Positions 1,535 through 34,706 of a stretch of DNA of 64,000 nucleotides are shown piece by piece. Location: positions 111,456-175,455 of the forward strand of contig JAAVTG010000917.1 of the NCBI GenBank assembly GCA_011947345.1, read 5' to 3'. Origin of the DNA: Phytophthora quininea (Eukaryota; Oomycota; Peronosporomycetes; Peronosporales; Peronosporaceae). The translations under genes and the position numbers were made by a program. The notes below the pieces were generated by a model. That model had not been told where the DNA came from. It saw nothing but the letters and a program-made list of their open reading frames with translations, and made no database searches. Each line of letters starts with the position of its first letter. The first letter of the stretch is position 1.

Positions 1535-2896
1535 TCAATCATTTCTCTCGTTAGAAATGGACACCGAAGCGGAGATGGGACTGTCTTCAATCTCTTTGGC
1601 TAGTGGTCCCTCTTCAGGAAGAAACGATTCTTTCCAGATCGTCGACAACACCGCCGCAAGTGTCGTCACCACCGAGTACTGCATCGTTGTGATATTCCTT
1701 CTAGGCTTTGGATCGACTGCAAACAAATTCGCGATGATAACATCGTCACCAGCTAGGATAGGGGCCCCGAAGAAGAAACAGATGCCTTCGTTCGCTGTGA
1801 CGGTGTTGTAGTGTCGGAAGCGGATGTCGAACGGCGCATTCCGGACGAGAAAAGGCTTCTTGTCCGACAGTAGCAAATGCGCCGAGAACGAGTGTTTCCG
1901 ATCGTTTACAGACACTCCTTGGTATGTTCGCAACGCCGGGATGAACAATTGTTGGTCGCCAAGGATGACGCTGACGAGACCTGTATTCGCTTCCAGCTCC
2001 TTGGCGACCAAGTCACAGATCAGAGCAAGCTCTTCCGTCAAAATGTCTTCATGGTGGAGTTTGTATCGCATGATCAACTCCTCGCGTTCGGCTTCTCTGG
2101 CGTGGTTTGGCACATCTGCCGGCTCTTCAGGCGACCGATACGTGAGCGGGTACTTGCGACGGCCATCCATTTCCGCCAACACACACTTCTCTAGAGGAAC
2201 TTCTGGGATACGGACGTCTAGACACTGCTGCACGAAATACTGAGCTCCGCGGATGAGTCGCGAGTCCGATCGTTGGGCGGACGCCGTGTCTTGCTGGTGC
2301 GACGACGACACGGTAGCGGCCCATTCGTTCTCACTGATGTCGTCCAGCAACACGCCAGCCAAACTGTCGAGTTCCTTGCCGAGGTGCCGCAGAAGCGACA
2401 GCACAGCGTGACGCCGTTCAGGTCGAGACCGAAGCATTTCGGCGAGGTTGACTCCGAGAGGACTGACGCTGGATTGGATCACCCACGGGGAAAACGTGAA
2501 CCCCGTCAGCTCTTCAACATTGACAGCCCAAGTGTTCAGGAGCGGCAGACATTTTTCGCAGCAGCGGATGAAGCGAATCACGAGCTCCACCCGTTCTCGC
2601 TCCATCACTCGTGAACAGGGCTCGCAGACCCAGTGGCCGCACACATGACACAAGTAGGGCTTCCAGATCGTGTTAAACGATCGCTGGCAGTAGGAGCAAA
2701 ATTCCGCTCGTGATCGCGGAGAAGCAGTGGTCGAGGCCTCTGCGGGTGGATCGAGTATGAGGGCTTGGAAGCCGATGTGTCGCCGTCGAACTAAAAGCTG
2801 CTGTCGGGTGAGTCGAGTGAATATGGGGTGGTCCGATCTAGTGGAGGCCACCGTGCAACGAGTCAATGCAGGGATGTCTGACCTTGCGGAGCGCAT
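1535..2896 (-). CDS. FYVE-like zinc finger plus GAF domain protein, copy 1 (intact)
   Basis: An uninterrupted 453-residue frame. Residues 67-116 hold eight cysteines in a FYVE-type spacing (C67/C70, C83/C86, C91/C94, C113/C116; core LCHVCGHWVCEPCS), but the basic RRHHC patch that binds phosphatidylinositol 3-phosphate is absent, so lipid binding is uncertain. Residues about 289-437 form a GAF-like domain (a small-ligand sensor fold) with the DPKPRRNITTMQYSVV signature shared by all four local copies. It is the only member here with an intact frame. Its first 670 coding bases, through the finger, are nearly identical to copies 3 and 4, whereas its GAF half is clearly diverged. It is head-to-head with copy 2, the start codons being about 110 bp apart. 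A signalling-adaptor role is inference. Confidence 0.85.
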   Translation of the reverse strand: MRSARSDIPALTRCTVASTRSDHPIFTRLTRQQLLVRRRHIGFQALILDPPAEASTTASPRSRAEFCSYCQRSFNTIWKPYLCHVCGHWVCEPCSRVMERERVELVIRFIRCCEKCLPLLNTWAVNVEELTGFTFSPWVIQSSVSPLGVNLAEMLRSRPERRHAVLSLLRHLGKELDSLAGVLLDDISENEWAATVSSSHQQDTASAQRSDSRLIRGAQYFVQQCLDVRIPEVPLEKCVLAEMDGRRKYPLTYRSPEEPADVPNHAREAEREELIMRYKLHHEDILTEELALICDLVAKELEANTGLVSVILGDQQLFIPALRTYQGVSVNDRKHSFSAHLLLSDKKPFLVRNAPFDIRFRHYNTVTANEGICFFFGAPILAGDDVIIANLFAVDPKPRRNITTMQYSVVTTLAAVLSTIWKESFLPEEGPLAKEIEDSPISASVSISNERND

Positions 2897-3007
2897 GTGT
2901 GTGCTGAAGAGCCCGTGAGGAAGTCTATAGTACCCGTTGGTTTCGCAGTTGCAAGGGGTTTCATGGGACTTTCAGTCGTGGATTTCGCTCGAGGGATTCC
3001 GAGCAGG

Positions 3008-4273
3008 ATGAACAACTCGAGAGACCACCCTGTCTTCAGGCGGCTGAATCGCCAGCAGCTCATCACTCGTCGGCGCAGCCTCGGTCTCCAGCCCCTCGTG
3101 CTCCACCCCGACTTCGCCAGCTCCCGCAAGTCTCGCTGCAAACACTGCGGCCGACGGTTCAACCCCATCTGGAAAAACTATCTGTGCCATCTCTGCGGTC
3201 GGTGGATCTGCGAGCCGTGCTCCAGCGTCGTGGAGCGGGAGCGAGATGTCCTGCTCGTCCGGTTCGTGCGCTGCTGCGTGACGTGCCTCAAGATGCTCAA
3301 CAAGATCCCGGAGCCGGAGTTGATCATGCCGTACATGGCGGTGCCTTACGTAAGCGCGAGCTCCAATAGCCAACTTGGTCTACACCTTGCAGACGTGCTA
3401 CGTAAAAGAAGGAGCTCCGTCCGGCAGTGCTGCAGCTTCTCAGCTGCCTGGGCCGGCCACTCGGTACCGACGACAAAATCCTCGCCGAGATCCGAGAGGA
3501 CGAGTGGATGGCAGCGATCGAGACGCTCTCGAGCCCGACGTCGGTGGACTGTGCCAATCGGACCAAGAGCGGCAACCAGAGACGACGTGAAAAGCGACGC
3601 AATGGAGACAGCGGCGTCAAGCCTGGCAACTGAGTGGGTGCAGTTCCTCGTCCAGCAGTGCTTTGAAGTGTCGCTCTCTGAGTTGTCGCTGGACGAGTGC
3701 GTGGTGGCGGAAGCGGACGGCACGAGGACGTACCCGATTTTCTACGACGAGGAGACAGACATGCCCTTCGCACCAGGCACCGCCAACGAAGTCGAGCGAG
3801 ACGAGTGCATGGTCAAATGCAACTTGCTAGACCGAGGGATCTCTGAGCACAAGGACGTTCAGCTCATCTGCCACCTCGCAGCCAAAGAGCTTGACGCGTT
3901 GGCGGGGACGATCACGACCGTCCAAGGCGAGAAGCAGTACGCGCTGACCATCGTCAACGACTCGGTTTGTGTGAGCACCGACCGCTCCAAAAGCTTCTGC
4001 GCGCACGCCTTTGCTTGCGGCCAGCCCTTCATGGTGCGGAATACGATGCTCGACGTGCGCTTCCGTAACTTTGCCTGTGTACGGGGCGACACTGAAGCTG
4101 CTACCAGTCGAGTTTTGTTCTACTTTGCATTTCCCATCATGGCGCCGAGGACGAACATAGCCATTGCCTTGCTTTGTGTGATGGATCACAAGCCCAGGAA
4201 GAGTATCACCACCATGCAGTACACGATCCTCAAGACCCTATCGGAAACGTTGACGGCGCTGTGGGATAACTAG
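3008..4273 (+). CDS. FYVE-like zinc finger plus GAF domain protein, copy 2
   Basis: I start at ATG 3008 because the following residues (MNNSRDHPVFRRLNRQQL) align with the N-terminus of the other copies; the frame is open upstream to 2897. It has the same eight-cysteine finger (CKHCGRRF, LCHLCGRWICEPCS, CCVTC) and a C-terminal GAF-like domain. It is the most divergent of the four copies and shows no recent sequence exchange. Between about 3404 and 3590 the family-like sequence lies in another frame (VLQLLSCLGRPLG, then AEIREDEWMAAIETLSS), and family similarity resumes in the original frame at TEWVQFLVQQCFEV. There is thus a shift at the A4 run 3404-3407 and a compensating shift of opposite sign later, leaving one long open frame with about 55 altered residues. 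Confidence 0.75.
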   Translation: MNNSRDHPVFRRLNRQQLITRRRSLGLQPLVLHPDFASSRKSRCKHCGRRFNPIWKNYLCHLCGRWICEPCSSVVERERDVLLVRFVRCCVTCLKMLNKIPEPELIMPYMAVPYVSASSNSQLGLHLADVLRKRRSSVRQCCSFSAAWAGHSVPTTKSSPRSERTSGWQRSRRSRARRRWTVPIGPRAATRDDVKSDAMETAASSLATEWVQFLVQQCFEVSLSELSLDECVVAEADGTRTYPIFYDEETDMPFAPGTANEVERDECMVKCNLLDRGISEHKDVQLICHLAAKELDALAGTITTVQGEKQYALTIVNDSVCVSTDRSKSFCAHAFACGQPFMVRNTMLDVRFRNFACVRGDTEAATSRVLFYFAFPIMAPRTNIAIALLCVMDHKPRKSITTMQYTILKTLSETLTALWDN

Positions 4274-4311
4274 CGCTCCACGATTAATATATTCGACGCA
4301 TGCGTCTCCAT

Positions 4312-5256
4312 TTACTGTGGTTGCTCCTGTTGTTGTTCCTTCAATTTTAACTGCTGGTCCTGATAGACCATGAATGGAGTGCGAGGCTTCGGAGCGACGA
4401 TCGGGAATCCCCGTCGTCCGAAACACTCTTTGAATCGCAACCTACTCGTTAAATGACCACGTTTGATTCGATCGCAGTGTTCTCGGTCGCAACAGTCCTC
4501 GCAGAAGTATCGGCTGCTGCATTCCAAGCAGAGGACGTCAGCAGGCCGCCTCCGCCCTTGTGCAGTGCAGTCCGAGCAAAATTGGGCCTCGGTTGTCGTC
4601 GGTGGGTCTCGGTTGATTAAAATTCTCTGAGGCAAAATCTTAGCGAGCAAAGCGCGACGCTTGTCTTCCTTTTCTCGCTGCTCTCGCTCCAGCTGTGCCG
4701 TCTCTAGCGGGTGCCGCCAAGTACTTTGATTGGTCTCCACATTCCAATAGTACGCAGTGTACGGGGGCTCGTTCAAGTAGCACCGTTGCCAACCCTCACG
4801 AAGAAGTGCTGCATCCTCCTCAGCAACCGCAGGGTCCACAGGCTCAGCGGACAGTGTGAAGACCGTCGTTAGCAGTTGGTCTGGATCGCCGACATTTAAC
4901 AACATACAGGCGCTGCGAACGAGGTCCTCTCGTTGGTCGACGAAATGTTGTTGTTGCCGAAGCCACGCCGTACTGGAGTCAGCGACTTCATACCAACTCT
5001 CGTGTAGATCCACCAGGTGCGTGGCACAGTAGACAAGCACCAGTACGGTTGTCCAGATGACGTTGGAGATATCGTCCTTGGGTGTGGGCACGATGAGGAG
5101 ACGTTGGTAGGGGATTGACAAACACTTTGCTAGCGCCTTGGACGGCGACCAGCCTTCGTTGGGTTTGACGCTGCGGCAGATCACATCCGCCACTTTCTCG
5201 GGGCTGAACGCACTTCCATCGGAGGCTTTAGAGCCAACTCCACGGCGTCTGGACAT
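4312..5256 (-). CDS. WW-domain and B-box-like zinc-finger protein
   Basis: An intact 314-residue frame. A WW domain occupies residues about 152-185 (GWQRCYLNEPPYTAYYWN, conserved tryptophans 156 and 180), expected to bind proline-rich ligands. A short charged helix follows (about 185-205), then a cysteine/histidine-rich module at about 227-268 (CSDC, CLEC, CEDCCDREHC, H268) resembling a B-box-type zinc finger. The tail is rich in Gln and Lys. The N-terminal 145 residues are helical with no recognised domain. The start lies 70 bp from the ATG of FYVE-GAF copy 3 on the opposite strand, so the two almost certainly share one promoter region. No substrate can be assigned; a scaffold or adaptor role is inference. 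Confidence 0.8.
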   Translation of the reverse strand: MSRRRGVGSKASDGSAFSPEKVADVICRSVKPNEGWSPSKALAKCLSIPYQRLLIVPTPKDDISNVIWTTVLVLVYCATHLVDLHESWYEVADSSTAWLRQQQHFVDQREDLVRSACMLLNVGDPDQLLTTVFTLSAEPVDPAVAEEDAALLREGWQRCYLNEPPYTAYYWNVETNQSTWRHPLETAQLEREQREKEDKRRALLAKILPQRILINRDPPTTTEAQFCSDCTAQGRRRPADVLCLECSSRYFCEDCCDREHCDRIKRGHLTSRLRFKECFGRRGFPIVAPKPRTPFMVYQDQQLKLKEQQQEQPQ

Positions 5257-5326
5257 TTTTCAATAGCAACGTCCAGGTTGTTGCCGGGGTTTCGTTGCGC
5301 GACTGAGCAGTATTGAATTTGACTCC

Positions 5327-6603
5327 ATGCAGTCGACACGCTCAGACCACCCCATATTCACTCGACTCACCCGACAGCAGCTTTTAGTTCGACGGCGACA
5401 CATCGGCTTCCAAGCCCTCATACTCGATCCACCCGCAGAGGCCTCGACCACTGCTTCTCCGCGATCACGAGCGGAATTTTGCTCCTACTGCCAGCGATCG
5501 TTTAACACGATCTGGAAGCCCTACTTGTGTCATGTGTGCGGCCACTGGGTCTGCGAGCCCTGTTCACGAGTGATGGAGCGAGAACGGGTGGAGCTCGTGA
5601 TTCGCTTCATCCGCTGCTGCGAAAATGTCTGCCGCTCCTGAACACTTGGGCTGTCAATGTTGAAGAGCTGACGGCGTTCACGTTTTCCCCGTGGGTGATC
5701 CAATCCAGCGTCAGTCCTCTCGGAGTCAACCTCGCCGAAATGCTTCGGTCTCGACCTGAACGGCGTCACGCTGTGCTGTCGCTTCTGCGGCACCTCGGCA
5801 AGGAAGTCGACAGTTTGGCTGGCGTGTTGCTGGACGACATCAGTGAGAACGAATGGGCCGCTACCGTGTCGTCGTCGCACCAGCAAGACACGGCGTCCGC
5901 CCAACGATCGGACTCGCGACTCATCCGCGGAGCTCAGTATTTCGTGCAGCAGTGTCTAGACGTCCGTATCCCAGAAGTTCCTCTAGAGAAGTGTGTGTTG
6001 GCGGAAATGGATGGCCGGCGTAGCTATCCGCTGACTTATCACTCGCCTCTAGAGCCTCCAGAAGCGCCATCGCACACCAGGGAAGCCGAGCGCGAGAAAT
6101 GGATCCGACGGTATCGGCTAGAGACGGAAGACGTGATGACAGAGGAGCTCGCGCTAATTTGCGATCTGGCGGCGAAGGAGCTGGGAGCGACCATCGGCCT
6201 CGTCAGTGTCATTTGTAAACACCGACATCAGTTCCTGCCGGCGATGCGCAACGTGAACGGCACGTCAACTTTCGACCGCAAGCATTCCTTCAACGCCCAC
6301 TTGCTGCTGTCGGATAACAAGCCGCTCCTAGTGCGGAACGCTCACTTGGACATTCGCTTTCGCCATTTTGGAGTGGTCACTGCTGGAGACGGCGTGTCAT
6401 CTTTCTTCGGCGTCCCCATTACGGCGGGCGACGGAGTCATCGTCGCTGCTCTTTTCGTAGTGGACCCAAAACCTCGGAAGAACATCACGACGATGCAGTA
6501 CTCGGTCGTGACCACATTAGCGGAATTGTTGTCGACCATGTGGGAAAAGAAGTTCGGCCGACGAAAGCCAAAGAAAATTCAGGCGCGTCTTGATGCCTCG
6601 TGA
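5327..6603 (+). CDS. FYVE-like zinc finger plus GAF domain protein, copy 3 (one frame break)
   Basis: Starts MQSTRSDHPIF and follows copy 1 through the zinc finger. The frame breaks at 5622-5625, where this copy has AAAA and intact copy 1 has five A; after the break the sequence continues in the next frame through the end of the finger, the linker and the GAF domain to 6603. Bases 5339-6017 are almost identical to copies 1 and 4, then identity falls abruptly and the GAF half is a distinct sequence (for example CKHRHQFLPAMRNVNG). If the missing A is a sequencing error, the product would be about 425 residues. The same A4 run is present in copy 4. Confidence 0.75.
5339..6017 (+). repeat. Near-identical FYVE-half tract shared by copies 1, 3 and 4
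   Basis: This 679 bp tract recurs at 6827-7505 (direct) and at 2160-2833 (inverted, in copy 1). The only differences I noticed are one G/C change between copies 3 and 4, one G/C change against copy 1, and the A5/A4 run. Similarity drops at once to ordinary paralogue level on the 3' side (after GAAATGGATGGCCG) and disappears on the 5' side. The sharp edges inside otherwise diverged genes point to gene conversion rather than whole-gene duplication. Confidence 0.8.
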
Positions 6604-6775
6604 GAGCATTTTTCCTCGCGATGTTTAGTACCGACAGCTTGTAGAATACAGCCTTTTGACATCCCATTACTTGTCCAACGTGCATGCAGGCGTTTGTAGA
6701 TTCATACCCCTTGCATTTTGGACGGTAGTTTCGCCTTCCCGTATTTGGACCAACCTGCATCACCGCGCAAACTCC

Positions 6776-8134
6776 ATGCAAGGGCGTGCGGAACCGCGGC
6801 CTGCTCTACTCTCCGCACCATCAACTCGCTCAGACCACCCCATATTCACTCGACTCACCCGACAGCAGCTTTTAGTTCGACGGCGACACATCGGCTTCCA
6901 AGCCCTCATACTCGATCCACCCGCAGAGGCCTCGACCACTGCTTCTCCGCGATCACGAGCGGAATTTTGCTCCTACTGCCAGCGATCGTTTAACACGATC
7001 TGGAAGCCCTACTTGTGTCATGTGTGCGGCCACTGGGTCTGCGAGCCCTGTTCACGAGTGATGGAGCGAGAACGGGTGGAGCTCGTGATTCGCTTCATCC
7101 GCTGCTGCGAAAATGTCTGCCGCTCCTGAACACTTGGGCTGTCAATGTTGAAGAGCTGACGGCGTTCACGTTTTCCCCGTGGGTGATCCAATCCAGCGTC
7201 AGTCCTCTCGGAGTCAACCTCGCCGAAATGCTTCGGTCTCGACCTGAACGGCGTCACGCTGTGCTGTCGCTTCTGCGGCACCTCGGCAAGGAACTCGACA
7301 GTTTGGCTGGCGTGTTGCTGGACGACATCAGTGAGAACGAATGGGCCGCTACCGTGTCGTCGTCGCACCAGCAAGACACGGCGTCCGCCCAACGATCGGA
7401 CTCGCGACTCATCCGCGGAGCTCAGTATTTCGTGCAGCAGTGTCTAGACGTCCGTATCCCAGAAGTTCCTCTAGAGAAGTGTGTGTTGGCGGAAATGGAT
7501 GGCCGTCGCTGCTACCCGCTTACATATCCTTCGTCGTCTGAGGTGCCGCTTGTGCCAAACCACCCGATGGAGTCCGCGAGAGAGGAGTGGCTCGTGCGCT
7601 ACAACCTCCACAAGGAAGACGCCCCTCCCGTGTCGGAGGAGGTGGCTCTGATCTGCGACCTGGTCGCCAAGGAGATGGAGTCAGCCATCGGCTGCACCAC
7701 CGTCGTCATGGGCGAGCGCCAGTGGTTCCTCCCGGCCATGCGCTCCGAGGACGGAGGCGTGCTGGTCAACGAGGGCAAAGAGTCCTTCGGCGCACTCGCT
7801 GCTGACGCGCAACTTGCCGCTGCTGGTGCGCAACGCGCAGCTGGATGTCCGCTTCCGAAACTACAAGGTGGTGACCGCCAAGAGCAGCAGCCTGCAGTTC
7901 TTCTTCGGGGTGCCGGTGCTAGCGGGCGATGGCGTCGTGGTGGCCACGCTCTGCGCGCTCGACACGCGGCCGCGGAAGAGCATCACAACTACGCAGTTCT
8001 CGGTGGTCAAGGCACTGGCCGACGTGGTGGGCACCGTCTGGAAGGAGGCGCTGGACGTCAAGGCAAGTGATTGCCCCGACCTCGCGCCGACTAATCAAAC
8101 GCTGCGTCATCTTGTCGTCTCGGCGCCGCACTGA
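6776..8134 (+). CDS. FYVE-like zinc finger plus GAF domain protein, copy 4 (two frame breaks)
   Basis: ATG 6776 is the nearest start; the N-terminal leader (MQGRAEPRPALLSAPS) is unique to this copy. From 6827 to 7505 it matches copy 3 almost base for base, then switches sharply to a different GAF-half sequence. Break 1 is the A4 run at 7110-7113, shared with copy 3. Break 2, near 7785-7795, shifts the frame in the opposite sense; after it the usual LLVRNAQLDVRFRNYK and DTRPRKSITTTQFSVV signatures reappear and end at 8134. The GAF half is more GC-rich than in the other copies. Two breaks of opposite sign make a real pseudogene more likely here than for copy 3, though this is unproven. Confidence 0.65.
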
Positions 8135-8569: not shown

Positions 8570-9460
8570 ATGGTGGGCGACGTCGTAGCGCTCACACAGC
8601 ACGCCCCACTCCGCAGCCACCCCAAGGGCAAGGCGACGGCAGAGATGAGCGCGTCCCAGACCTTCTGCCCCGAGCCGCAGCTCTTCAGAACGCCAGTGTC
8701 CGCCCCAAGCGCCATGGGCTCGTGCTACCCCAAGTGCATGGGCGAGCCGGAGACGCAGGCTGCCGCGCGCGCTCGGAGACCCTCTACGGACCGAGCATCC
8801 AGCGGCCTGTACAGCGACAACCAGGCGGAGCTGCTGGCCAGCATGCGGACGTTCGACTTGGAGGAGCTGGGTCTGAGCACGGAGGCCTCGGTGGTCGTGC
8901 AGGAGACGCAGCTGGAGGTCGAGTACGAGGAGAATGACGAAGAGCACCAGCAGGCAAGAGCAGATGCCGCGCAGTGCGCTCCTAGCGCCTGTGGGCTGCT
9001 GGAGGACAAGGAGACGCCACTAGTGGACAGCAGACGGCGCCTGAGGGCAGGAAGCGAGGCGGTAGCCCCCACGTCCGGCCTCAAGGGCAAGAGCGTCATC
9101 TTCGAGCAGGACAAGACGCCGCTGGAGTACAGTAACTCGACCACCGACCAAGGGGACGAGCCGGCGCGCTGCTCTAAAGTTCACAAGCTCTGCATGTGCG
9201 AGCTGAAGTTGCACCGCTCGCTCGAGAGCTGCTGGCTCGTGTCCAGCGGCCAGGTGTACGACGTCACGGGGTTGGTCACGGCCCACCCGGGCGGCGAGCG
9301 CTCCATCCTGCGCAAAGCCGGCGGCCCGGACTGCGCGCGAGACATGAAATTCCACACCAAGAAGGCGCGCAAGATGATGGACAAGTGCTTCATCGGCAAG
9401 CTCGAGCCCTGCGGAGACGACGCCGACTGCTCTGGCGACGCCAATTGCAGCATCATGTAA
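8570..9460 (+). CDS. Cytochrome b5-domain protein with a C-terminal CaaX-like motif
   Basis: A 296-residue frame. The C-terminal third is a cytochrome b5-like haem-binding domain (WLVSSGQVYDVTGLVTAHPG): the first axial histidine is in HPGG at residue 239 and the second in MKFHTKKA at about residue 262. Such domains carry electrons to desaturases or hydroxylases or act in sterol/haem binding. The N-terminal 200 residues look disordered and acidic. The protein ends CSIM, which fits a CaaX prenylation box, so it may be tethered to membrane by a lipid rather than by the usual C-terminal helix; no hydrophobic segment is visible. The start is uncertain: ATG 8570 gives the longest frame, ATG 8645 is an alternative. 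No frame break is apparent. Confidence 0.75.
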   Translation: MVGDVVALTQHAPLRSHPKGKATAEMSASQTFCPEPQLFRTPVSAPSAMGSCYPKCMGEPETQAAARARRPSTDRASSGLYSDNQAELLASMRTFDLEELGLSTEASVVVQETQLEVEYEENDEEHQQARADAAQCAPSACGLLEDKETPLVDSRRRLRAGSEAVAPTSGLKGKSVIFEQDKTPLEYSNSTTDQGDEPARCSKVHKLCMCELKLHRSLESCWLVSSGQVYDVTGLVTAHPGGERSILRKAGGPDCARDMKFHTKKARKMMDKCFIGKLEPCGDDADCSGDANCSIM

Positions 9461-10757: not shown

Positions 10758-11624
10758 ATGGCTGCATACGTCGAGTCCAAGCCTCTCCCGAGCGGCCACT
10801 CCATTCCAACGTTGGCGTTGGGCGTCTTCCAAAGCGAATCAGGCGCTGAAACATACACGTCGGTTCTGACTGCACTCCAGCTCGGCTACCGGCACATCGA
10901 CACGGCAACTGCGTACGAGAACGAAAGCGACGTGGGCAGAGCCGTCCGCGACTCTGGAATTCCCCGCGACGAGATCTTCGTCACCAGCAAGTACTATGAG
11001 ATCTCCTGGATCCCTTGGTCCACCACTGCTCACCAGCCTTGGTCTTACCAGAGAGTGGTGGACGGCGTCCGTGAGAGCAACCGCAAACTCGGACTCGGAT
11101 ACATCGATTTGTATCTACTACATGCGCCATGTGATGCCAACACCCGTGCAGAAGCCTGGAAGGCTCTTGAAGACATGCAAGCCGAAGGAATTGTTCGCGA
11201 CATCGGCGTGTCCAACTACGGTGAGGAGCACCTCAAGAAGTTGGCCACGACTTGGCGCGTCAAGCCGGCCGTGAACCAGATTGAGTTGCATCCGTGGCTG
11301 GCTCGCCCCGACACTGTCACATACTGTGAAAGCAAAGGCATCTTGCTGGAGGCGTACTCACCTCTGGCCCGCGCAGAGAAGATGGACGATCCCGTAGTCG
11401 TGGAGATCGCGAACGAGTTGAATGCAACTCAGGCGCAGGTGATGATCGCCTGGTGCCTAGCGAAGGGCTTTATCCCGTTGCCGAAGTCGGTCAAGAAGGA
11501 TCGCATCAAAAGCAACTTGGAGGCAGCGACGCTGAAATTCTCAACTGAGCAACTGGCGAAGTTGAAGGCTGTGGACGAATACTTCGTCTCGGGTTGGGAT
11601 CCGATCAAGCAGCATGTCGTGTAG
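10758..11624 (+). CDS. Aldo-keto reductase (NADPH-dependent)
   Basis: An intact 288-residue single-exon frame, usual length for the family. It contains the AKR signatures: GYRHIDTATAYENE with catalytic Asp and Tyr, the catalytic Lys in VTSKYY, the catalytic His in LYLLHAP, then VSNYGEEHLKKL, NQIELHPWL and the nucleotide-binding LPKSVKKDRIKSN. These enzymes reduce aldehydes and ketones with NADPH in the cytosol; the substrate cannot be told from sequence. The ATG context CCCCATGG is good and a pyrimidine-rich leader precedes it. A relic of a second copy lies upstream, which suggests a formerly duplicated locus. Confidence 0.93.
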   Translation: MAAYVESKPLPSGHSIPTLALGVFQSESGAETYTSVLTALQLGYRHIDTATAYENESDVGRAVRDSGIPRDEIFVTSKYYEISWIPWSTTAHQPWSYQRVVDGVRESNRKLGLGYIDLYLLHAPCDANTRAEAWKALEDMQAEGIVRDIGVSNYGEEHLKKLATTWRVKPAVNQIELHPWLARPDTVTYCESKGILLEAYSPLARAEKMDDPVVVEIANELNATQAQVMIAWCLAKGFIPLPKSVKKDRIKSNLEAATLKFSTEQLAKLKAVDEYFVSGWDPIKQHVV

Positions 11625-12753: not shown

Positions 12754-13976
12754 TTAGTTCAGTGCCCCGACGCCAAAGTTGCCAGCCGCCAGCTTCAACT
12801 GCTGCGCTTGCTGCGGTTTGTAGCGAGCAATCGTGGGGTGCTTCTTCACCATCTCAATCACGTCCGTGCCGTTGAACGAGCCGAGCGGCCCGCTGTCTTC
12901 CAGCACGTTCTCTTCGCACAAGCGACCCAAATTGGTGGAGCACTCGTCGTCACCAGTCTCGACGTAGATGGCGCCTTCGTAGCCCCCACCAACGTCGGGG
13001 TCGTCGCCGTCATACAGTGGCTTCGTCACGTTCTTGAAGTAGTTGCCCTCGGCGAGTACGTACGAGTTAACACTCAGCTCCATCGAGTGGTAGGAGTTGT
13101 CCTCGAAGTAGTTGTTGGCAATGTGGGTGACCACTTGGACGCCTTCGCCACCAGCTTTCGGAAGGCGACCAGACATGGAGTGGATGTAGTTGTTGATCAT
13201 GCTGATGCCAGTGTGCTTGCCATCCAGGAGGAAAGCCCAGTAGTGGTGGCCGTCGCAGGTCTTGGAGTACTCCGTTCGGCCGTCAAAGTCGCAGTTGCTG
13301 ATCGTCATCGTGGACGCCCCAGCCCTGTCAACAGCCAGGAATTGTCGACCGATGCGAGAAATCTTCACGTGGTCGAGCCAAATGTGCTTGAGTGGCACCG
13401 TGCCGTCCGTGGTCCCCTGGATGGTGATGGCATCGCCTCCCCATACGAGATGCGCGTTGAGCCCAGTGATGTGGACGTTCTGAACAATGATGTTGTCGCC
13501 GTTCAGCGCGAGACCTTTGCCCATGATGACTCCGCTGGTGCCCACACCACGGATGGTCTTGTTGCCTTTCACATTGAGGCGATTCATGGCCGCGTTGTCG
13601 TAGGTAACTTTCACACTCGTGCCGTTGGTGCAGCCACCGGTGTTGTTTAGCGCGCCGCCCTTGAGGATAACATCCTGACTCTTAAAACTGTTGTCGAGAG
13701 CGATGCATCTGCGCATGTAGTCGGGGCGGCAACCGTCAGCGGTCGTGTTGCCCTGTAGTCCGCGGAAGTCGAAAGTCTTTGTCAATACGATCACGTGTGC
13801 TTCTGAGTCCCTTAGAAGAGCCTCCAACTCTTTGGTGGTGTTGGGATAGACTGGGAGACGTCACCACCGCCAACAGTGCCAGCACCCATGCCGATGGGGG
13901 AACCGATCTCGAAAGCATGCGCAAATTGAATTGCGAGAGAGAACGCTGCAGCGAATAGAAGCTGGCGGTAACTCAT
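12754..13976 (-). CDS. Secreted pectin lyase, polysaccharide lyase family 1 (one frame break)
   Basis: ATG 13976 opens a signal peptide (MSYRQLLFAAAFSLAIQFAH) and a short linker GSPIGMGAGTVGGGD. The frame then breaks at a run of three T on the plus strand (13831-13833), and the rest (12754-13827) is open to the stop. The mature part has the parallel beta-helix features of PL1 pectin lyases: WGGDAITIQG, HIWLDHVKISRIGRQ, the SGRLPKAGG catalytic-arginine region and a cysteine-rich core. It would cleave methyl-esterified pectin in plant walls by beta-elimination. With one base restored the total is 1,224 nt (407 residues), a normal length, so the break may be an error. A relic of a related gene lies near 43.6 kb. 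Confidence 0.88.
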
Positions 13977-19213: not shown

Positions 19214-20394
19214 ATTGTCACGGTTTAGCTGCGTGCGCTGGAGTTGAAGTCTTCGCCACGAGGAGAATTCGAGAATGCGAAAACTTGGATCGCTCACGAT
19301 GCGTCCCGTATGCTTCACATCGGAAGATTTTCGGGTCGCTTGCTGTTCCATCAACAGCAGTCGCTGCTGCGCCGAATCGTTCGCTAGCGTAATGGCGAAG
19401 TCGTTCGCAAGGAGCGGGCTCGAAGGCCATGCCCGAACAGGAAATGGTGTCCGTCCGGCAGCAACTTCAACGAGACAGTCAATCACCATCGCATTTGCAC
19501 GGCGAGCAACAGATATTATATTTGCAGGTGGAGCACATCAAGCACAAACAATTGCAAGTGCGTGGTGAGAACAACAAGATAACAAAGTCATCGGACAATG
19601 TTTGGTCGTTTGCCACCGAATAATGATGACAACAAGACCAGGCAACCCATTTCCGGAACTCCAAATGTGGAGTCTGCACTACCACCTGACTCCAGACCAC
19701 GCGAGTCTGACAGCCGAGCACTGGAAACCAATCGAAGGAGGCAGCGTCTTCTTCAAAACTACAGATGTCGGAATGCTAAAGATGATAGCATTACTCCAGC
19801 GAAGCCTCACGAGATTATTAGAGTTGACACAACCAGATCAAGTAGTTCTACGAATCGACACGACGGACAAAAACTACTACAAACTGATGCTCAAGCGAGA
19901 TTTTGAGCTGCTTTCACTTCAGCATGATATTAACAGCTTTTTCGCAGTCCAATGGGCAGACAAGACTCCAAAGGAGTAAATTTTCTAGCAACACTGGACA
20001 CCACGACTACTTCTGAATTCTATGGCGATAATGGATCTCTTGACACAAGAAGGCTTACCAGGAATGTTATCGTGACAGCTGCACCAACCATGCTGGAATC
20101 TTCATCACAGAGAGTCGCGTCTTAGTTAGTACCAGGCTTCTAAAGGAAAAAGACATCAAAACCAAATAGAAGGCCAATAACACCGCATTTGCACGGCGAG
20201 CGACTCTTGTTTCCAACAGGAGTCGTCATACCTGTGTTCGAGCACAAGTAGTCAGTGACAGATTAGACGGCGTTCCTTTCGTTGTTGTCAACCAGTGACA
20301 CGGTACCGATGAAGCACAAGAAAATATTGTTTGATAAAAAGATGTTTCGCGTAGTCATACAGAGTAAAAGTTTGGAGAACTGCTTACGGCCAGC
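19214..20394. other. 1.2 kb stretch without a recognised gene
   Basis: Separates the small secreted protein from ATPase copy 1. It contains one moderately long plus-strand frame (annotated separately) and two copies of a direct repeat sharing CGCATTTGCACGGCGAGC at 19490-19507 and 20184-20201. The sequence is less GC-rich than the neighbouring genes. Confidence 0.4.
19602..19979 (+). CDS. Hypothetical short frame of unknown origin
   Basis: A 125-residue frame with plausible composition (LTPDHASLTAEHWKPIEGG, VLRIDTTDKNYYKLMLKRDF). No domain or signal peptide is recognised. The first ATG is uncertain; the internal MMTTRPGNPFP or MWSLHYHLT are alternatives. It lies between the two copies of the 18 bp direct repeat, so it may be part of a degenerate mobile element. 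Low support. Confidence 0.3.
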   Translation: MVVCHRIMMTTRPGNPFPELQMWSLHYHLTPDHASLTAEHWKPIEGGSVFFKTTDVGMLKMIALLQRSLTRLLELTQPDQVVLRIDTTDKNYYKLMLKRDFELLSLQHDINSFFAVQWADKTPKE

Positions 20395-23300
20395 TTACTT
20401 CCGCATAGGGATCAAGTCCGTGTGGTACTTGTTGCGGAAGTACGTGCGGACGGGGCCGAGGACCACAAAGTACTCCCACAACATGCTGCCGAAGGTGTTG
20501 CCCAGGATGATGCCGAGGTACTTGAGACGGAAGCTCATGGGCATGGGGATATCCGGCAGACCGACGACGTTAGTGCTGCTCGAGATGCGGAACTGGTCGG
20601 TCATAGCACTGGGCTCACCCAGCAGCAAGTACAGATCAAGCACCACCAGACACGCGAAGAACACCATCAGCAGGTAGTTGCGCCAGATCGGCTGACGGTA
20701 GATGGAGCCGAAGCTGAAGGTCCAGCACGCCGTGTGCTGCTGGGTGATGACCGTGAAGAACAGTGTCGTCGCCATGTGGTTGTCCGACATGAGCCACCAC
20801 TTCGCTGCATCGACGTTGTCAGGCGAGAATGGGCAGTACCAGACTTGACTCGATAGCATGTGTACGCCGCAAGACAGGAAGATGATGTTAAGAGCCTCCT
20901 GTCCAAGGATGGAGGCCAGCGTCGTTGGTCCGATGAGACTGGAGGTCGGACGGGTGTCCTTCAGCTCCTTCAGGGGCTTGGACAGAGTGATCACGTACGA
21001 GCAGCCCACCAGCGTAAAGCCTTCAGCCAGGATCCAGCACCACTGCGACAGATTGACGGCGTGGTAGTACTGGAACATGCGCAGTGAAGAACCAATGAGG
21101 CCGTAAATGACGAGGAATTTCACAGAGGCGAAAGACGTCGCGACACTGCAGCGACCTTCACGGCACAGATCGACGACCGACTGAATGGACTTGGCCTTGC
21201 TCGTAAACGGAGACACCACTGAAGCTTCAGCATCGCTCAACGCAACACCGGCGTGAGCGAAACGGAGAGCACCGCAGTCATTGCCACCATCACCGCACAT
21301 TCCTGTGACCGCACCAGTCTCCATGTGCAGTTTGACGCACTCGACCTTGCCATCAGGAGTCATTCGGCTGTAAATGCGAATGTGAAGCAGCAGGCCGTTG
21401 ATCTCGCCCATTGCGACAAGGTAGTCGAAGGCCACGCCAGTCACAGCCAGCTCCACATCCTCGTTACCCTCGATCATATTTTTAATCTGGGGCAAGTCGT
21501 ACTCTTCTTCCGAGTCGACATCGCGCCACACTAGCTTCTTCGCTTCCTTCGTTGAAACCATCTCGCCCAAAATCACACGAGAGCTGCCGGTGATCATTCC
21601 ACTAGCACGCGCAATGTAGCAGCCACACATGGCGTTGTCTCCGGTGATCATGACCGTACGGATGTCTCCTGCTTTGAGTTTCGCGATGGCATCGGCCGTG
21701 TCGTCCTTCAGTTCATTTCGGAAGAGGATCAGACCCAGCAGCGACAGATCATCATCGACAGCCTCGCGGTTGGCAGCGAACTTCTCGACCTGCTCGCGGG
21801 TCCAGTCGTTGGGTAACTCGCGGTACGACATGCCCAGCACATAGCAGCCGTCCTTCGCGAGACGATCAGCCACCGTCTTGTAGTCCGCGGGGACGCTGCC
21901 GGGGATGCTCAACTGCTGCATGCGCTCGTACGAACCCTTGCAGAAGACGTAGTACTTGCCGTTCTTGCGGTTGCACACCACCACGCTCATCGACATGCGG
22001 TGGTGGTCGAAGTCGTAGCGCTTGACAAATTCCAGCTCGAGACCAGGGTCCACCTTCGACTTGACGTACGGCACTTCGCCCTCCTTCTCGACCAGCTCCC
22101 AGCCCGTGGCCGTGAACATGCGCACTTCAACTTCATTTCCGACCAGGCGGTCTTCGAGTGAGCCGACAGCGTGGCAAGTAGCCAACGCGAACTGCATTTC
22201 CTCGGACGGAGGAGCTCCCTGGATGTCCTTGGCGATGGGGTCGAACAAGTTGTTTTTCACAGGTTGAACCCCGAGGAAGTCGAGGCCCTGCTTGGTGAGG
22301 GTGCCGGTCTTGTCGAAGCAGAAAATGCGGACCTTACCACACAGAGTGATCCGCTGCACGTTGAGAGAGAAGATACCCTGCTTTTCGAGACGCTGAGAAG
22401 CGTTCACTTGGCCCACCGTGATCACCACTGGCAGAAGCGGACTGATCACCGACGAAAGAACGAAAATGGCGTAACAGAATGCAGCGAACCGGTTGCTCAG
22501 CTTGCCATTGCCGAGGAGGAAGTTCACGACAAGGATACAAGCGACAACAGCGTAGATCAACAAACCCCGATTAAAACCTTGAGGTGCTCGTTGTACTTGA
22601 AGCGCATCGGGACCGGGAACAAAATGGACTGGATGAGAAGACCCTTAGTCGTGTGCGCACCCGTGGTCTGTACAACCGCAAGGATCTCCTCATTACGGCC
22701 CGAAGACAGCACGCGGGTACCAGAGAACAGCGTGTGCTTCTTGCTGCCCTTCTCGGGGTCGTACACTTCGTTGCTGCGCTCAGGGATCGGGAACTTCTGC
22801 ACCGGCATCGACTCGCCCGTCAGCATCGATTCGTCGCACACCGTCGTGCCCTTGATGATGGCCATATCGCATGGCACCACCCAGTTCTCGGACACCTTCA
22901 CGAGGTCGCCTGGGGCAACGTCGGGAGAAGACACCACGCGCCATTCACCGTTGCGGAACACCGTCACATCCGTGCGGTAGCGAGTCATTCGGACGATAGA
23001 CGACTGGATCTGGCGCTGCGTGTAGATGTTGACGACGGCAGCACCAACGACCACGACCGTCATAACGATGCCCATGTTCCAGTACGTGAAGTAGTACCAG
23101 ACGTAGTAGCACATGATCTGGTAGACGTAGAACAGCGTGAAGAACTCGTGGGCCATCGAAACCGGCAGCGACGGCATCTCGACATCCACCGAGTTAAGAC
23201 CAACAGTGTTGATGCGGTCCTTGGCCTCCGAATCGGACAAACCACCAGACTCACGCTGCATGTCTTCGTACGTACGACCAAGCGCAACAGCACCTGGCAC

Positions 23301-24601
23301 AAAACGACCCTCGGATTCCTCGTACACGTAGCGCACATGCTGGAATTCGACAATGCGAAGACCATCAACCTTCACCACCGGGATCGTCGTCCGGTAGCCG
23401 TTCAGCTTTCCTTTCGGAGCAAAGCAACTCTCGATCTTGGCCACAAAGTCCGAGACACCCGAGCGATCGGCCAGCAGCACTTCCGTGTCGTCGCGCTTCA
23501 GCATGTAGACGTAGTCGCACTTTTCGAGCGGAACTCGCAGACGGAAGAAGTTGAACATTCGATCCTGCGTGGTCACAATGACGACAAACCAGACGGACGT
23601 GATGGCCCACACCACGATGAACACCACGGCATTGTCCTCGGATGCGTCAAAGAGCGGCGGGTCGAAGTTGCCGTAGTAGTCGGCAATTACGATAATCAGA
23701 AGCACGTTGAGCGCCACGGTCGCGACCACCACACAGGCGAACACAAAAGATCCGATGAACGACGTGGAGAAGCCCGTCTGGAGAATGTCCTCTCGGGCCT
23801 CATTCTGCAGACGAGTGTCTGATGCACGGACGCTCGTATGGCGGCCGACAGCACTGCCCGCTACAGCCTGAAGGGGAGTGTTCGGAGTAGCCAGCAATCG
23901 CTTGTCCATCTCATTGATCGACTTGTTCTTCATCTGCAGGTAGTGCTTATAACCGGTCCAAGCCCCCAGAATGAGGAAGAACGCCAGATACAGCAGATAG
24001 ATGATCACCAACGGGGTCTCAGTGAATTGGGTGAAGCGAGGCTCAGCAGAAGTTGACGTGGACGTGCATGTGTCCTTCAGGTCGGTGTCGACCGAGCCGT
24101 CACGCAGCATGAGGCTGTAGCAGTTGGCACCGATCGGGAACGTGGCGTTGTTGTTGCGAACGTTGGCTGGGTACGTCCAAAAGGAAGTGCTGTCCTGCGA
24201 GTCCGCAACGAGCGACGAGTTGGTGTCGCCGCACTGCAGCTCCTCCGTCAGCTCACCGGTCTGCGTGTTGGCCACGGCGTGCACCCGACACACCGTGCTG
24301 GGCTCGTCGTAGTAGAACTTGGGTGTCTTCGGGTGGTACATGACGTACGGGAAGTTGACCTGGCGCCGCTTGTTCCAGCCGTCCACGTAGAAGGACTCGT
24401 AGTCGCCCCCGTCGGTCGGTTGTACTTGGTGTAGAGCACCTTGGTAGTCTCCGAGTACTCGCAGCAGAAGTACTCGGGGCGGTGTCGGATGGGGCAGGCG
24501 GCGAAGTCCATTTGGTCGGCACTGGCGGCTCGCACCTGCTCGGGGGCGAGCGTGGCGAGTGCCGTTGCGGTCGGCAGCAGCACCGAACTCCAGCGGGGCA
24601 T
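20395..24601 (-). CDS. P5B-type (ATP13A-like) transport ATPase, copy 1 (two frame breaks)
   Basis: ATG 24601 to stop 20395, no intron visible. Two breaks, at C5 24406-24410 and C4 22565-22568 (plus strand), split it into three open pieces; with one base at each, the length is 4,209 nt or 1,402 residues. P-type signatures: MLTGESMPVQKF (actuator), FCFDKTGTLTKQGLDFLG (phosphorylated Asp), MITGDNAMCG, and GMCGDGGNDCGALRFAHAG with SDAEASVVSPFTSKA, the last diagnostic of the P5 class. The M4 sequence is SPLLPVVITVGQ where P5B enzymes usually have PPALP. P5B pumps act in endolysosomal membranes; animal members export polyamines. Identical to copy 2 apart from a few substitutions, except the last ten codons. 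A hAT element sits 134 bp upstream of the ATG. Confidence 0.9.
20421..24601 (-). repeat. Inverted repeat, left arm (4,181 bp)
   Basis: Identical in length to 30394-34574 in inverse orientation, with fewer than about ten substitutions noticed and no indel. The identity starts exactly at the ATPase start codon and ends within the tenth codon from the stop; upstream leaders and downstream flanks are unrelated. Arms are separated by 5.8 kb. Confidence 0.9.
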
Positions 24602-24726
24602 TGTTGCTTCGGGAGACTTGGAGTTTGGTGTGAGCCCGGCGACGTGAATTGGCGAATGAATTCCTTGCAAGCGGCGACGGTAGTGTGTTCACGCTCGGAG
24701 ATCGGTGCTTCTCCTAGCTGCGGTGC

Positions 24727-27735: not shown

Positions 27736-30393
27736 CAGCCTTAAACAAGTTCGACCAGCTGCTGGAGCACCGCCGTCTCTGCAGCACCGTGTTTCCTCAA
27801 ACAAACTGCGACAACGGGAGCTAGCCGGGTCACGCCAGGGTTTCGCCGCTTGTGTCGCGTGCATAAGCTTTTGTTTCGTCTCGGGATCTTCACTGTTTCC
27901 ATAGAGAAGGCAAGTCTGGCAAGGTTGTCATGAACAAAAAGTTGTGGATTTCCGCTGCAAGACAGAACCGTGCAGACTTCATTTGCAGTCCTCGACATCC
28001 CCAGGCGGAGCAGACGAAGCAAACACTCCGCTGGAGTCGCCGTTGGCCTTGGAGATCGTTTCGCACAGCCAAACTTACACACGAGCGCAGCTAACGCTCT
28101 CCAAAGCTCTGCAGGTAATTTTTCGCCGCATCAGCTTTTGACATGCTGTAGACAGACAGGGGCGTGTCTTCCTTACCTCTGCAACAGCAAGTCAAACATT
28201 CGCGCCGACAAAGCGCTGCAGCCGGTGGGGTGTAGCCGTGGCAGCGGAGATCTCCACAACTGCTGATTGCAGCCGCAGGCATCTGGCTGTTTGGGAGCAG
28301 TATCATCGGAGGCAGGTGGTGTGCCAGCTTCGTGGGCGGCTTGCACAACTATTATTTGGGTGAGAGGTGCGGCCTAATTCCTCCCTGCTGTTGCGCTGGA
28401 GTTGAACTGCTGGGCATGAAGCAGATACGGCGTCGAGGATATGACCCGGTGCAGCATTGGCGTCGGACTGGTGCTCCAACGAACGGTACTGTGTTGGAAG
28501 TATTATACACAGTGTGCTGTATGTACACCAGCAGGAACAGCATCTTTTGCTGTCTGCTCTCTCTACGGGCATCTCCACTGAGAGAGACAATATTTCGTCC
28601 TGCGAGGCGAAAGTAAAAGGGATGGGAATGGCGGTGCAGGCGAAGGCAGTGCTGTTCACTCCGGGCGGTGCGGCCTCACACGGTGCCGTGCCTTCCAATA
28701 TTAGACCAGACTTCGCAGGCCTCATTCTCCTTTTGTCTTCCCGAGTGCTCAACCCCAGGAAAACACTGTCGATCAGCTTTGGAGTCCACACCGCCAACTC
28801 CTGAAGCGCGCCAACATGGCCGTCAAGCCTCGTGTTGTCGGTTGAAGCCGCCTGAAATGCAAGCGGCGACGAGGGAAAGGTAGGTGAGCCCATGGTAGAC
28901 TTCTATGCTTGTCAAGAAACGACGATATCCCAGCGTTCACTTTTTCCGGCTCTTTGCATCGACGAGTCGGTCCAACTTTCGCGATCCAAGACAGCGAGCA
29001 TCCGTGGCGAAGACGCTTGTCGGACGCTTTCGTCTGCGTTGGCAACGGGCCAGCAAGCCACTCGTAAGTAAAGCTGCATCGGTACACGACGCCGACGATA
29101 AGGTCGTTTCGGAGCCTCCTCGGGTCGATGCTCGAGTCGCGTTGCTGGTCAAGCGAGTCGCTGCTGGCTGAATGCAAGCGCGAGCGGGCTGAGCAATCGA
29201 ACCCACGACGGCCGCGGAACAACGGACCGCCCAGACCTTGCACTGCGTCTCCTGCGTTTTGTATGGAGCCGGCAGTCTCGTCCACGGTCCTCGTCGACAG
29301 CCCCAACGGCGTGTTGGCACTTAAGATCCTGAACACGCAGACATCTACGTCTCGCGGCGCCGTTGTTCTGTCTCCAAGGACCCGACGAGCAGCTCTCCAA
29401 CGGCGGGAAGCCTCGACGAGGGTGTCTTGCTGCCGATACCGGAGCCCGTCGAGCGCTGCCGCCGCCGAGACCTTGATGCACGCCCCGCAGGTCTGTGCAG
29501 CCCCATCCCACGATGCCCATGAATGGATGGGACAGCAGCCGCGCCAAAGCGCAAAGAGTGAAATAGATGTGGCGGCCGCATGGAGATCCGCAGGAAGCGT
29601 GCGATTCCTCGCGGGTTAATGGCCGCCACCGCCGTGAATGGTGACTGCAGCTGGGCATGGACCGTGTCACTCTCGCGCAACAGCAAGCGCCGTGGCTTGG
29701 ATGCGGACGGGCGAGCGTATCGCCGCTCGTGTTTGCTGAGTTTCGTCGAGGACAGGAACTGCAGCAGCAGCATTGGGGTGTGCGGCAGGGCAGGGAGGGG
29801 GCTGCATCGGAGACGACCCCCAATACGTATATTGTCAACGTCAGCGATATTGTCCTAAGGCGATTGACACACGGGCGAGAGCAAACAGGGGGTCTCCTCC
29901 ATAACTTTCTTGGCAGTCAAGTGACCAGTACCTCAATCGCGTCCTACTACTTTGGGCTGCGACATGAATTCCCTCCAAACAAGCATACGTTCGTGCACCA
30001 AGATTCCGTCACTTGGTCAAAGTATGCTCGCTGGGCGTCTTATTGGTGACCACGATTCTCTCGTGGAATATGTAGTCATCTCGCCCGAGACTGCAGTTTT
30101 GACTTGCTAGCGCGACGCATTGGTCAGCATTGCTACCATCTCGCTGCGATTCCCATGCAACAAGGTCTCTCTGCACCAACTAAAGCTTGCAGCGAGTTTC
30201 TGTCGTTGTGGGTTCGCCGTGAAGCGTGACCAGGCTACCCGAACCTTGAGGACGTCAAGGCCGTACCCGACACCACGCACCACCACCACGTTACCGAGCG
30301 CATCCCAACCATCGCCGCACTCGGCAATTCGTCGGTGACCTCGCATCCAGTCGCCAAGCAACCTCGACCCAGCCAACTGAGCCATTGTAAACG
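27736..30393. other. 2.7 kb spacer between the hAT element and ATPase copy 2, no assignable gene
   Basis: Several frames of 60-230 codons overlap on both strands (for example minus 28303-28893 and minus 29149-29838), but none shows a recognisable domain, convincing splice structure or consistent coding bias. With the hAT removed, this and 24602-24726 form the original head-to-head interval of about 2.8 kb between the two ATPase genes. The last few hundred bases should hold the copy 2 promoter. Confidence 0.35.
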
Positions 30394-33300
30394 ATGCCCC
30401 GCTGGAGTTCGGTGCTGCTGCCGACCGCAACGGCACTCGCCACGCTCGCCCCCGAGCAGGTGCGAGCCGCCAGTGCCGACCAAATGGACTTCGCCGCCTG
30501 CCCCATCCGACACCGCCCCGAGTACTTCTGCTGCGAGTACTCGGAGACTACCAAGGTGCTCTACACCAAGTACAACCGACCGACGGGGGCGACTACGAGT
30601 CCTTCTACGTGGACGGCTGGAACAAGCGGCGCCAGGTCAACTTCCCGTACGTCATGTACCACCCGAAGACACCCAAGTTCTACTACGACGAGCCCAGCAC
30701 GGTGTGTCGGGTGCACGCCGTGGCCAACACGCAGACCGGTGAGCTGACGGAGGAGCTGCAGTGCGGCGACACCAACTCGTCGCTCGTTGCGGACTCGCAG
30801 GACAGCACTTCCTTTTGGACGTACCCAGCCAACGTTCGCAACAACAACGCCACGTTCCCGATCGGTGCCAACTGCTACAGCCTCATGCTGCGTGACGGCT
30901 CGGTCGACACCGACCTGAAGGACACATGCACGTCCACGTCAACTTCTGCTGAGCCTCGCTTCACCCAATTCACTGAGACCCCGTTGGTGATCATCTATCT
31001 GCTGTATCTGGCGTTCTTCCTCATTCTGGGGGCTTGGACCGGTTATAAGCACTACCTGCAGATGAAGAACAAGTCGATCAATGAGATGGACAAGCGATTG
31101 CTGGCTACTCCGAACACTCCCCTTCAGGCTGTAGCGGGCAGTGCTGTCGGCCGCCATACGAGCGTCCGTGCATCAGACACTCGTCTGCAGAATGAGGCCC
31201 GAGAGGACATTCTCCAGACGGGCTTCTCCACGTCGTTCATCGGATCTTTTGTGTTCGCCTGTGTGGTGGTCGCGACCGTGGCGCTCAACGTGCTTCTGAT
31301 TATCGTAATTGCCGACTACTACGGCAACTTCGACCCGCCGCTCTTTGACGCATCCGAGGACAATGCCGTGGTGTTCATCGTGGTGTGGGCCATCACGTCC
31401 GTCTGGTTTGTCGTCATTGTGACCACGCAGGATCGAATGTTCAACTTCTTCCGTCTGCGAGTTCCGCTCGAAAAGTGCGACTACGTCTACATGCTGAAGC
31501 GCGACGACACGGAAGTGCTGCTGGCCGATCGCTCGGGTGTCTCGGACTTTGTGGCCAAGATCGAGAGTTGCTTTGCTCCGAAAGGAAAGCTGAACGGCTA
31601 CCGGACGACGATCCCGGTGGTGAAGGTTGATGGTCTTCGCATTGTCGAATTCCAGCATGTGCGCTACGTGTACGAGGAATCCGAGGGTCGTTTTGTGCCA
31701 GGTGCTGTTGCGCTTGGTCGTACGTACGAAGACATGCAGCGTGAGTCTGGTGGTTTGTCCGATTCGGAGGCCAAGGACCGCATCAACACTGTTGGTCTTA
31801 ACTCGGTGGATGTCGAGATGCCGTCGCTGCCGGTTTCGATGGCCCACGAGTTCTTCACGCTGTTCTACGTCTACCAGATCATGTGCTACTACGTCTGGTA
31901 CTACTTCACGTACTGGAACATGGGCATCGTTATGACGGTCGTGGTCGTTGGTGCTGCCGTCGTCAACATCTACACGCAGCGCCAGATCCAGTCGTCTATC
32001 GTCCGAATGACTCGCTACCGCACGGATGTGACGGTGTTCCGCAACGGTGAATGGCGCGTGGTGTCTTCTCCCGACGTTGCCCCAGGCGACCTCGTGAAGG
32101 TGTCCGAGAACTGGGTGGTGCCATGCGATATGGCCATCATCAAGGGCACGACGGTGTGCGACGAATCGATGCTGACGGGCGAGTCGATGCCGGTGCAGAA
32201 GTTCCCGATCCCTGAGCGCAGCAACGAAGTGTACGACCCCGAGAAGGGCAGCAAGAAGCACACGCTGTTCTCTGGTACCCGCGTGTTGTCTTCGGGCCGT
32301 AATGAGGAGATCCTTGCGGTTGTACAGACCACGGGTGCGCACACGACTAAGGGTCTTCTCATCCAGTCCATTTTGTTCCCGGTCCCGATGCGCTTCAAGT
32401 ACAACGAGCACCTCAAGGTTTTAATCGGGGTTTGTTGATCTACGCTGTTGTCGCTTGTATCCTTGTCGTGAACTTCCTCCTCGGCAATGGCAAGCTGAGC
32501 AACCGGTTCGCTGCATTCTGTTACGCCATTTTCGTTCTTTCGTCGGTGATCAGTCCGCTTCTGCCAGTGGTGATCACGGTGGGCCAAGTGAACGCTTCTC
32601 AGCGTCTCGAAAAGCAGGGTATCTTCTCTCTCAACGTGCAGCGGATCACTCTGTGTGGTAAGGTCCGCATTTTCTGCTTCGACAAGACCGGCACCCTCAC
32701 CAAGCAGGGCCTCGACTTCCTCGGTGTTCAACCTGTGAAAAACAACTTGTTCGACCCCATCGCCAGGGACATCCAGGGAGCTCCTCCGTCCGAGGAAATG
32801 CAGTTCGCGTTGGCTACTTGCCACGCTGTCGGCTCACTCGAAGACCGCCTGGTCGGAAATGAAGTTGAAGTGCGCATGTTCACGGCCACGGGCTGGGAGC
32901 TGGTCGAGAAGGAGGGCGAAGTGCCGTACGTCAAGTCGAAGGTGGACCCTGGTCTCGAGCTGGAATTTGTCAAGCGCTACGACTTCGACCACCACCGCAT
33001 GTCGATGAGCGTGGTGGTGCGCAACCGCAAGAACGGCAAGTACTACGTCTTCTGCAAGGGTTCGTACGAGCGCATGCAGCAGTTGAGCATCCCCGGCAGC
33101 GTCCCCGCGGACTACAAGACGGTGGCTGATCGTCTCGCGAAGGACGGCTGCTATGTGCTGGGCATGTCGTACCGCGAGTTGCCCAACGACTGGACCCGCG
33201 AGCAGGTCGAGAAGTTCGCTGCCAACCGCGAGGCTGTCGATGATGATCTGTCGCTGCTGGGTCTGATCCTCTTCCGAAATGAACTGAAGGACGACACGGC

Positions 33301-34600: not shown

Positions 34601-34706
34601 GGCTAGCCGAACGTATGTCGTGTCGTATCCAGCAGTAGTCGATAAAGGTGATTCCGTCACATCAAACGCAATATTATTCAAGCAATGGTAGCAAGCAAAA
34701 GTCACC

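Follow-up and report, generated by a model that had tools for sequence, protein, structure and literature searches.

Near-identical front halves, probably equalised by gene conversion, and an inverted segment between two of them in a FYVE-GAF gene cluster of Phytophthora quininea

Where else do homogenised inverted repeats go together with an inversion of the DNA between them? The closest known case, judged by analogy, is the flip/flop region of Saccharomyces (YNL018C/YNL034W). According to the available portion of the source, inverted paralogues are homogenised there by conversion, crossover between the repeats inverts the segment that they enclose, and both orientations occur; the repeats are 4.2 kb long and hold whole genes with their promoters, and the segment measures 24 kb (PMC9731477). 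Here we describe a cluster of FYVE-GAF genes in Phytophthora quininea, at positions 1535-8134 of a 64,000-nucleotide stretch of DNA (the window: bases 111456-175455 of contig JAAVTG010000917.1, called C909 below, in an assembly of 87 Mb in 993 contigs). The cluster consists of four related genes, G1 to G4, plus one unrelated gene (4312-5256) among them. As in the flip/flop region, homogenised inverted repeats are linked here with an inversion; unlike the repeats described there, the arms are front halves only, 674 nucleotides (nt) long, so that a flip gives different C-terminal sensors each other's upstream regions and leaders. In bacteria, phase-variable invertible promoters are turned by site-specific recombinases, switch fast, and change the gene that the promoter faces. 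The P. quininea inversion likewise changes the gene faced by a putative promoter, but its arms are homologous and its two orientations are known from contigs alone.

A parallel for conversion that affects only part of a gene is Plasmodium msp7, which encodes merozoite surface proteins. There, partial conversion affects mainly the 3' ends while other parts are diverse (PMC5126858); in contrast to the present case, the accessible part of that paper has the C-terminal region converted and balancing selection on central regions, and it mentions no inversion. The RTP genes treated in a Xenopus paper were considered as a precedent and rejected, since the text available prefers recent duplication to conversion as the explanation in fish RTPs (PMC8172065). 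As for the FYVE family, 191 proteins are stated for P. sojae, and FYVE proteins with unusual partner domains, to which the present genes are comparable, belong to the oomycete expansion; that work, however, is on FYVE kinases, and its available portion mentions neither a FYVE-GAF gene nor conversion (PMC10381902). A literature search for FYVE with a GAF domain in Phytophthora gave no match, and the oomycete literature on the two domains, so far as its text was accessible, contained no FYVE-GAF gene.

What do the P. quininea genes share? A tract of 673-674 nt, located with a repeat finder and MAFFT alignment, lies at 2833-2160 in G1 (minus strand), at 5345-6017 in G3 (plus strand, inverted relative to G1) and at 6833-7505 in G4 (plus strand). 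In the window its copies differ at 2/673 positions between G1 and G3, 2/673 between G1 and G4, and 1/672 between G3 and G4, which bears out the preliminary description, where three of the four paralogues were said to share a near-identical front of about 675 base pairs, one of them inverted. Past the 3' edge, identity in the three pairs drops to 397/623, 396/643 and 351/613 (57-64% of the DNA), and ahead of the 5' edge, where the leaders are unrelated, it is 27/67, 33/71 and 29/65. A binomial test of the mismatch split, over 1179-1182 sites, gave P ≤ 4e-60 for each window pair. The abrupt common point of divergence had been placed just past GAAATGGATGG, and this is where we find it: the motif ends at 6014 and 7502 on the plus strand and spans 2163-2173 on the minus strand, 3 nt ahead of each 3' edge. 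That edge is indeed sharp, and the 5' edge is sharp too. The first mismatches in six pairs fall at alignment columns 754-758 on the right and 73-79 on the left, so that both edges agree within about 4-6 nt across the pairs examined. The 3' edge sits at a hinge, about 16 residues ahead of the matched GAF fold. The tract begins only a few codons past the start codon, so that the upstream regions also differ.

Two further contigs, the 40-kb C977 and the 33-kb C978, carry the same cluster. The tract is present in 9/9 copies on the three contigs, and on C977 each of the three pairs differs at 2/674 positions. The nine copies vary at four substitution columns and by some indels, several of them only in C978. 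A DNA search found the tract, among the matches listed, only on C909, C977 and C978, and on this ground a mobile module was rejected.

Equal front halves could in principle reflect either copying between old genes or recent duplication, and synonymous divergence (dS) separates the two. From the C977 copies, whose frames are open, tract dS is 0.030 for G1-G3, 0.006 for G1-G4 and 0.024 for G3-G4, values that are slightly overestimated because the split used runs slightly beyond the 3' edge. For the GAF halves the corresponding dS is 1.85, 1.09 and 1.73, and the nonsynonymous divergence (dN) is 0.31, 0.38 and 0.43. Synonymous divergence is therefore far from uniform along the genes; a uniform one is what the preliminary description had named as fatal to its idea. 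Because GAF dS exceeds 1 and tract dS is at most 0.03 in every pair, at least two conversion events are needed, as the description had supposed in speaking of repeated conversion limited to one module.

The trees point the same way. Besides the C977 copies of G3 and G4 themselves (P0017 and P0018), 30 homologues were listed (P0001-P0016 and P0019-P0032), and the approximately unbiased (AU) tests covered 24 rows, namely 20 homologues and G1, G2, G3 and G4. P0010, P0012, P0013, P0014, P0019 and P0027 were left out of the trees as truncated, odd or long, P0022, P0026, P0031 and P0032 were never part of them, and the window G1 was omitted as a near copy of the C977 gene. In the protein listing for G1, 13/16 rows are from Phytophthora (12 species) and 1/16 is from Pythium oligandrum; each row of a listing stands for a 90%-identity cluster, which would hide near copies within one species. 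The GAF halves place G1 and G3 with homologue P0007 (support 97/94) and put G4 among ordinary Phytophthora genes, adjoining P. kernoviae (86/80); they reject a clade of G1, G3 and G4 (AU p 1.0e-5). The front halves unite G1, G3 and G4 (99/98) and reject G1+G3+P0007 (AU p 0.0076). P0007 itself lacks the tract and is 72% identical to G1 in the front and 69% in the GAF half. For P0007, G2 and control orthologues, front-half identities were counted from the MERER motif onward because several database models lack the beginning. The 28 control pairs, from 8 ordinary orthologues, have a mean front-half identity of 83.8% against 73.2% for the GAF half; the intrinsic rate of the front is thus only somewhat lower.

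Equal fronts would also result if the genes had been triplicated in tandem recently and their GAF halves had then diverged very fast, and it may be said for this reading that, among the proteins of the GAF tree, only P0007 and no named Phytophthora row joins G1 and G3. The GAF dS of 1.09-1.85 and the rejected clade speak against it, as does the GAF half of G4, which is nearer to Phytophthora rows (64-69%) than to G1 (56%) or G3 (54%). We rejected simple recent triplication on these three grounds and regard it as hardly conceivable. The standing of G4 as an ordinary gene is also supported by its neighbourhood: an aldo/keto reductase gene, whose best protein match is from P. nicotianae at 83%, lies near it in the window, and an ordinary FYVE-GAF gene and a reductase apparently share one contig in P. 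pseudosyringae, P. citrophthora, P. cinnamomi and P. fragariaefolia, and likewise in P. sojae, there with lower-ranked reductase matches. Local tree conflict, sharp breakpoints and low tract dS occur together, and the first of these with the dS contrast argues for conversion between old paralogues over recent duplication.

The most unusual part of the locus, not visible from the window alone, is the inversion. On both sides the C909 flanks are co-linear with C977 and C978, but 2487 nt between the arms of G1 and G3 align in reverse, with 12 mismatches (99.4% identity) on C977 and at 98.6% identity on C978. In the window this segment (2834-5344) holds the G1 leader, G2, the unrelated gene and the G3 leader. 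The leaders are exchanged: the G1 leader of C977 and C978 is the G3 leader of C909, and vice versa. Both orientations, with breaks within the repeats, thus occur on contigs of one assembly. At the ends of the segment lie two close divergent gene pairs, G1/G2 (about 110 nt between likely starts) and G3 with the unrelated gene (about 70 nt), so that on flipping the G1 and G3 sensors trade their upstream regions and first residues; the regions traded would include the promoters.

Could the assembly have produced this picture, by collapsing front halves or by turning the segment falsely at the repeats? Haplotigs seem to be present in it, one contig is indel-rich at this locus, and the arms are nearly identical, with their orientation known from contigs alone. 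Each copy, however, is flanked by a unique leader and GAF half on each of three contigs, an assembler would hardly equalise fronts as different as the GAF halves are, and the inverted order is carried by both C977 and C978. We therefore consider an artefact very improbable. As for collapse in particular, which had been named as a possible refutation, the same tract on two further contigs with different leaders and GAF halves makes it very unlikely.

The reading frames differ among the contigs. In the window G1 is open, G3 and G4 share a frame shift at one common point near the finger end, and G4 has a second one in its GAF half; on C977 all three genes are open, and the C978 copies are broken near the finger end too. 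The frame shifts of the window may be either assembly indels or haplotype-specific lesions, and the lesion common to G3 and G4, if real, may have spread by conversion. As a separate observation, the window contains a second pair of inverted arms, at 20394-24605 and 30390-34601, each of 4212 nt, 100% complementary and separated by a 5.8-kb spacer. Their open reading frames (ORFs) match parts of P-type cation ATPases, and the order on C977 and C978 departs from that on C909 here as well; these arms may represent a second flip or else a palindrome created in assembly.

We propose that G1, G3 and G4 are old FYVE-GAF paralogues whose fronts have been equalised by gene conversion, and that crossover between the arms flips the middle; taken as a whole, this account is likely to be correct. 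Conversion would copy the 674-nt front half between pairs that still match, and the fronts would either be kept alike over the long term or have been overwritten again recently. On the left the exchange would end with the homology, at the unrelated leaders just past the start codon; on the right it would end because the GAF halves have diverged too far to pair. Because G1 and G3 form facing inverted arms, some exchanges could end as crossovers, flipping the approximately 2.5 kb between them. The locus would then exist in two versions, between which the G1 and G3 sensors have traded their divergent promoter regions and N-terminal leaders.

Several points weigh against this account. Over 20 kb only 11 mismatches, besides 45 gap letters, separate C977 from the indel-rich C978; the two probably represent a single haplotype, so the inversion may have been assembled independently only once (C909 and C977 differ by 41 mismatches in 12.6 kb). 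The front-half tree tests, on the 24 rows, single out no donor paralogue: the tract joins the ordinary genes with support of only 69/53, tract plus P0007 is not rejected (AU p 0.35), and tract plus P. kernoviae is mildly rejected (AU p 0.032). P0007 with the ordinary genes is not rejected either (AU p 0.25). Since the GAF half of G4 pairs with P. kernoviae, the mild rejection is somewhat against a donor from the G4 lineage; G4 as donor was withdrawn, as the direct front-half test does not settle it. Finally, one edge in three genes would be unexpected from several independent conversions, and seems to call for an inherited edge or a strong barrier of heterology.

The timing of conversion bears on this last point. 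The common edges suggest an early conversion with an inherited edge and homogenisation continuing since. The fronts may instead have been converted independently and recently in each recipient, with no long-running concerted evolution from one ancestral event: P0007, nearest to G1 and G3 by its GAF half, lacks the tract, and paralogous tracts differ (2 per 673-674 nt) to a degree comparable with that between contigs. Edges within about 4-6 nt in six pairs are improbable for random end points, and we hold independent conversions to be a real possibility, though not the favoured one.

Is the cluster a selected system of constant and variable modules? Such a receptor set would keep finger and linker identical for a common partner, let the GAF domains diversify towards different ligands, and re-pair promoters with sensors by the flip. 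The position of the 3' edge at the hinge, the three open proteins of C977 and the re-paired leaders are consistent with it. The GAF-half dN/dS, however, is 0.17 (G1-G3), 0.35 (G1-G4) and 0.25 (G3-G4) over 190-199 codons, pairwise values for the whole half with no site test, and rough because dS is near saturation. On average, then, purifying selection acts on the GAF halves, and neither positive selection nor hypervariability appears in these whole-half ratios. No finger-only homogenisation was found by blastn among 14 other FYVE-GAF loci of the genome (L039-L042, L044, L045, L048-L050 and L058-L062), a comparison outside which most of the 89 matches of the genome family scan lie. That comparison gave whole-unit copies on contig C75, pairs of contigs that resemble each other throughout (95.8-99.7%), or matches at 67-75%; only the finger region is covered by the match of L061 with L062 (75% over 320 nt), and L061 ends ahead of the gene's second half. 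Each named Phytophthora species has one row of the close type (in clusters at 90% identity), P. pseudosyringae having two; the C909 and C978 copies are frame-shifted, unless by assembly error; and both edges are also simply sites where homology drops. A selected constant/variable receptor system is thus possible but not supported, and we think it unlikely; to call the GAF half free to diversify was an overstatement, given these ratios and the 14 loci. A side product of the comparison is a whole-unit tandem on C75, where L058, L059 and L060 are three FYVE-GAF copies at about 8.6-kb spacing with 99.7-99.9% identity over 1.8 kb.

In the conversion account, one finger-linker output would be common to different GAF inputs in signalling, and the flip may affect expression. 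A stronger version, rather improbable at present, is a homology-driven flip-flop, recurring in populations, that re-pairs two divergent promoter regions with two GAF sensors while conversion holds the output constant; if true, each orientation would wire the same pair of upstream signals to opposite sensors. Under the conversion account proposed above, the locus would be a very clean natural case of conversion of a single module, with edges that can be placed to within a few nucleotides and with coding half-genes as inversion arms. If the flip recurs in other isolates, it becomes testable whether promoters can be exchanged between sensors within a population while the frames downstream of the leader stay unchanged. 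Whole-gene trees of such FYVE-GAF paralogues may mislead.

Turning to gene content, G1 (1535-2896, minus strand, 453 residues) encodes a FYVE-like finger, a helical linker and a GAF domain; G3 lies at 5327-6603 and G4 at 6776-8134, both on the plus strand, the start of G4 being inferred from leader alignment. Pfam FYVE scores are 30.0 bits for G1 and 30.2 for G3 and G4, against a cut-off of 27.8, and the GAF halves are GAF domains by sequence match and by fold match. The R(R/K)HHCR motif is the basic patch by which FYVE fingers bind phosphatidylinositol 3-phosphate (PI3P). A profile alignment to RUFY1 shows WKeYLCH in place of RRKHHCR; the patch is absent, hence we call the finger FYVE-like and do not expect PI3P binding through that patch. 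G2 (ORF at 2897-4273, plus strand) likely starts near 3008, which leaves about 110 nt to the start of G1. Its FYVE match, at 27.0 bits, is just below the cut-off, and no GAF match is listed. With 31-32% identity to the homogenised genes in the front half, 36-38% in the GAF half and 52% over the finger region, G2 is an older, diverged paralogue that takes no part in homogenisation.

A P. megakarya protein (P0019, PHMEG_0001529) is G2-like to the middle of the GAF domain and then resembles an ordinary FYVE-GAF gene in a window-by-window comparison; as a second module swap it was dropped, being probably a gene-model fusion of neighbours. The unrelated gene (4312-5256, minus strand, from the ORF and Pfam) has weak WW and ZZ-like matches, both below the Pfam cut-offs, and diverges from G3, with about 70 nt between the likely starts as judged from ORFs. 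Beyond G4, neighbours recognised by domain are a cytochrome b5, the aldo/keto reductase and a pectate lyase, at 8570-9460, 10758-11624 and 12754-13716.

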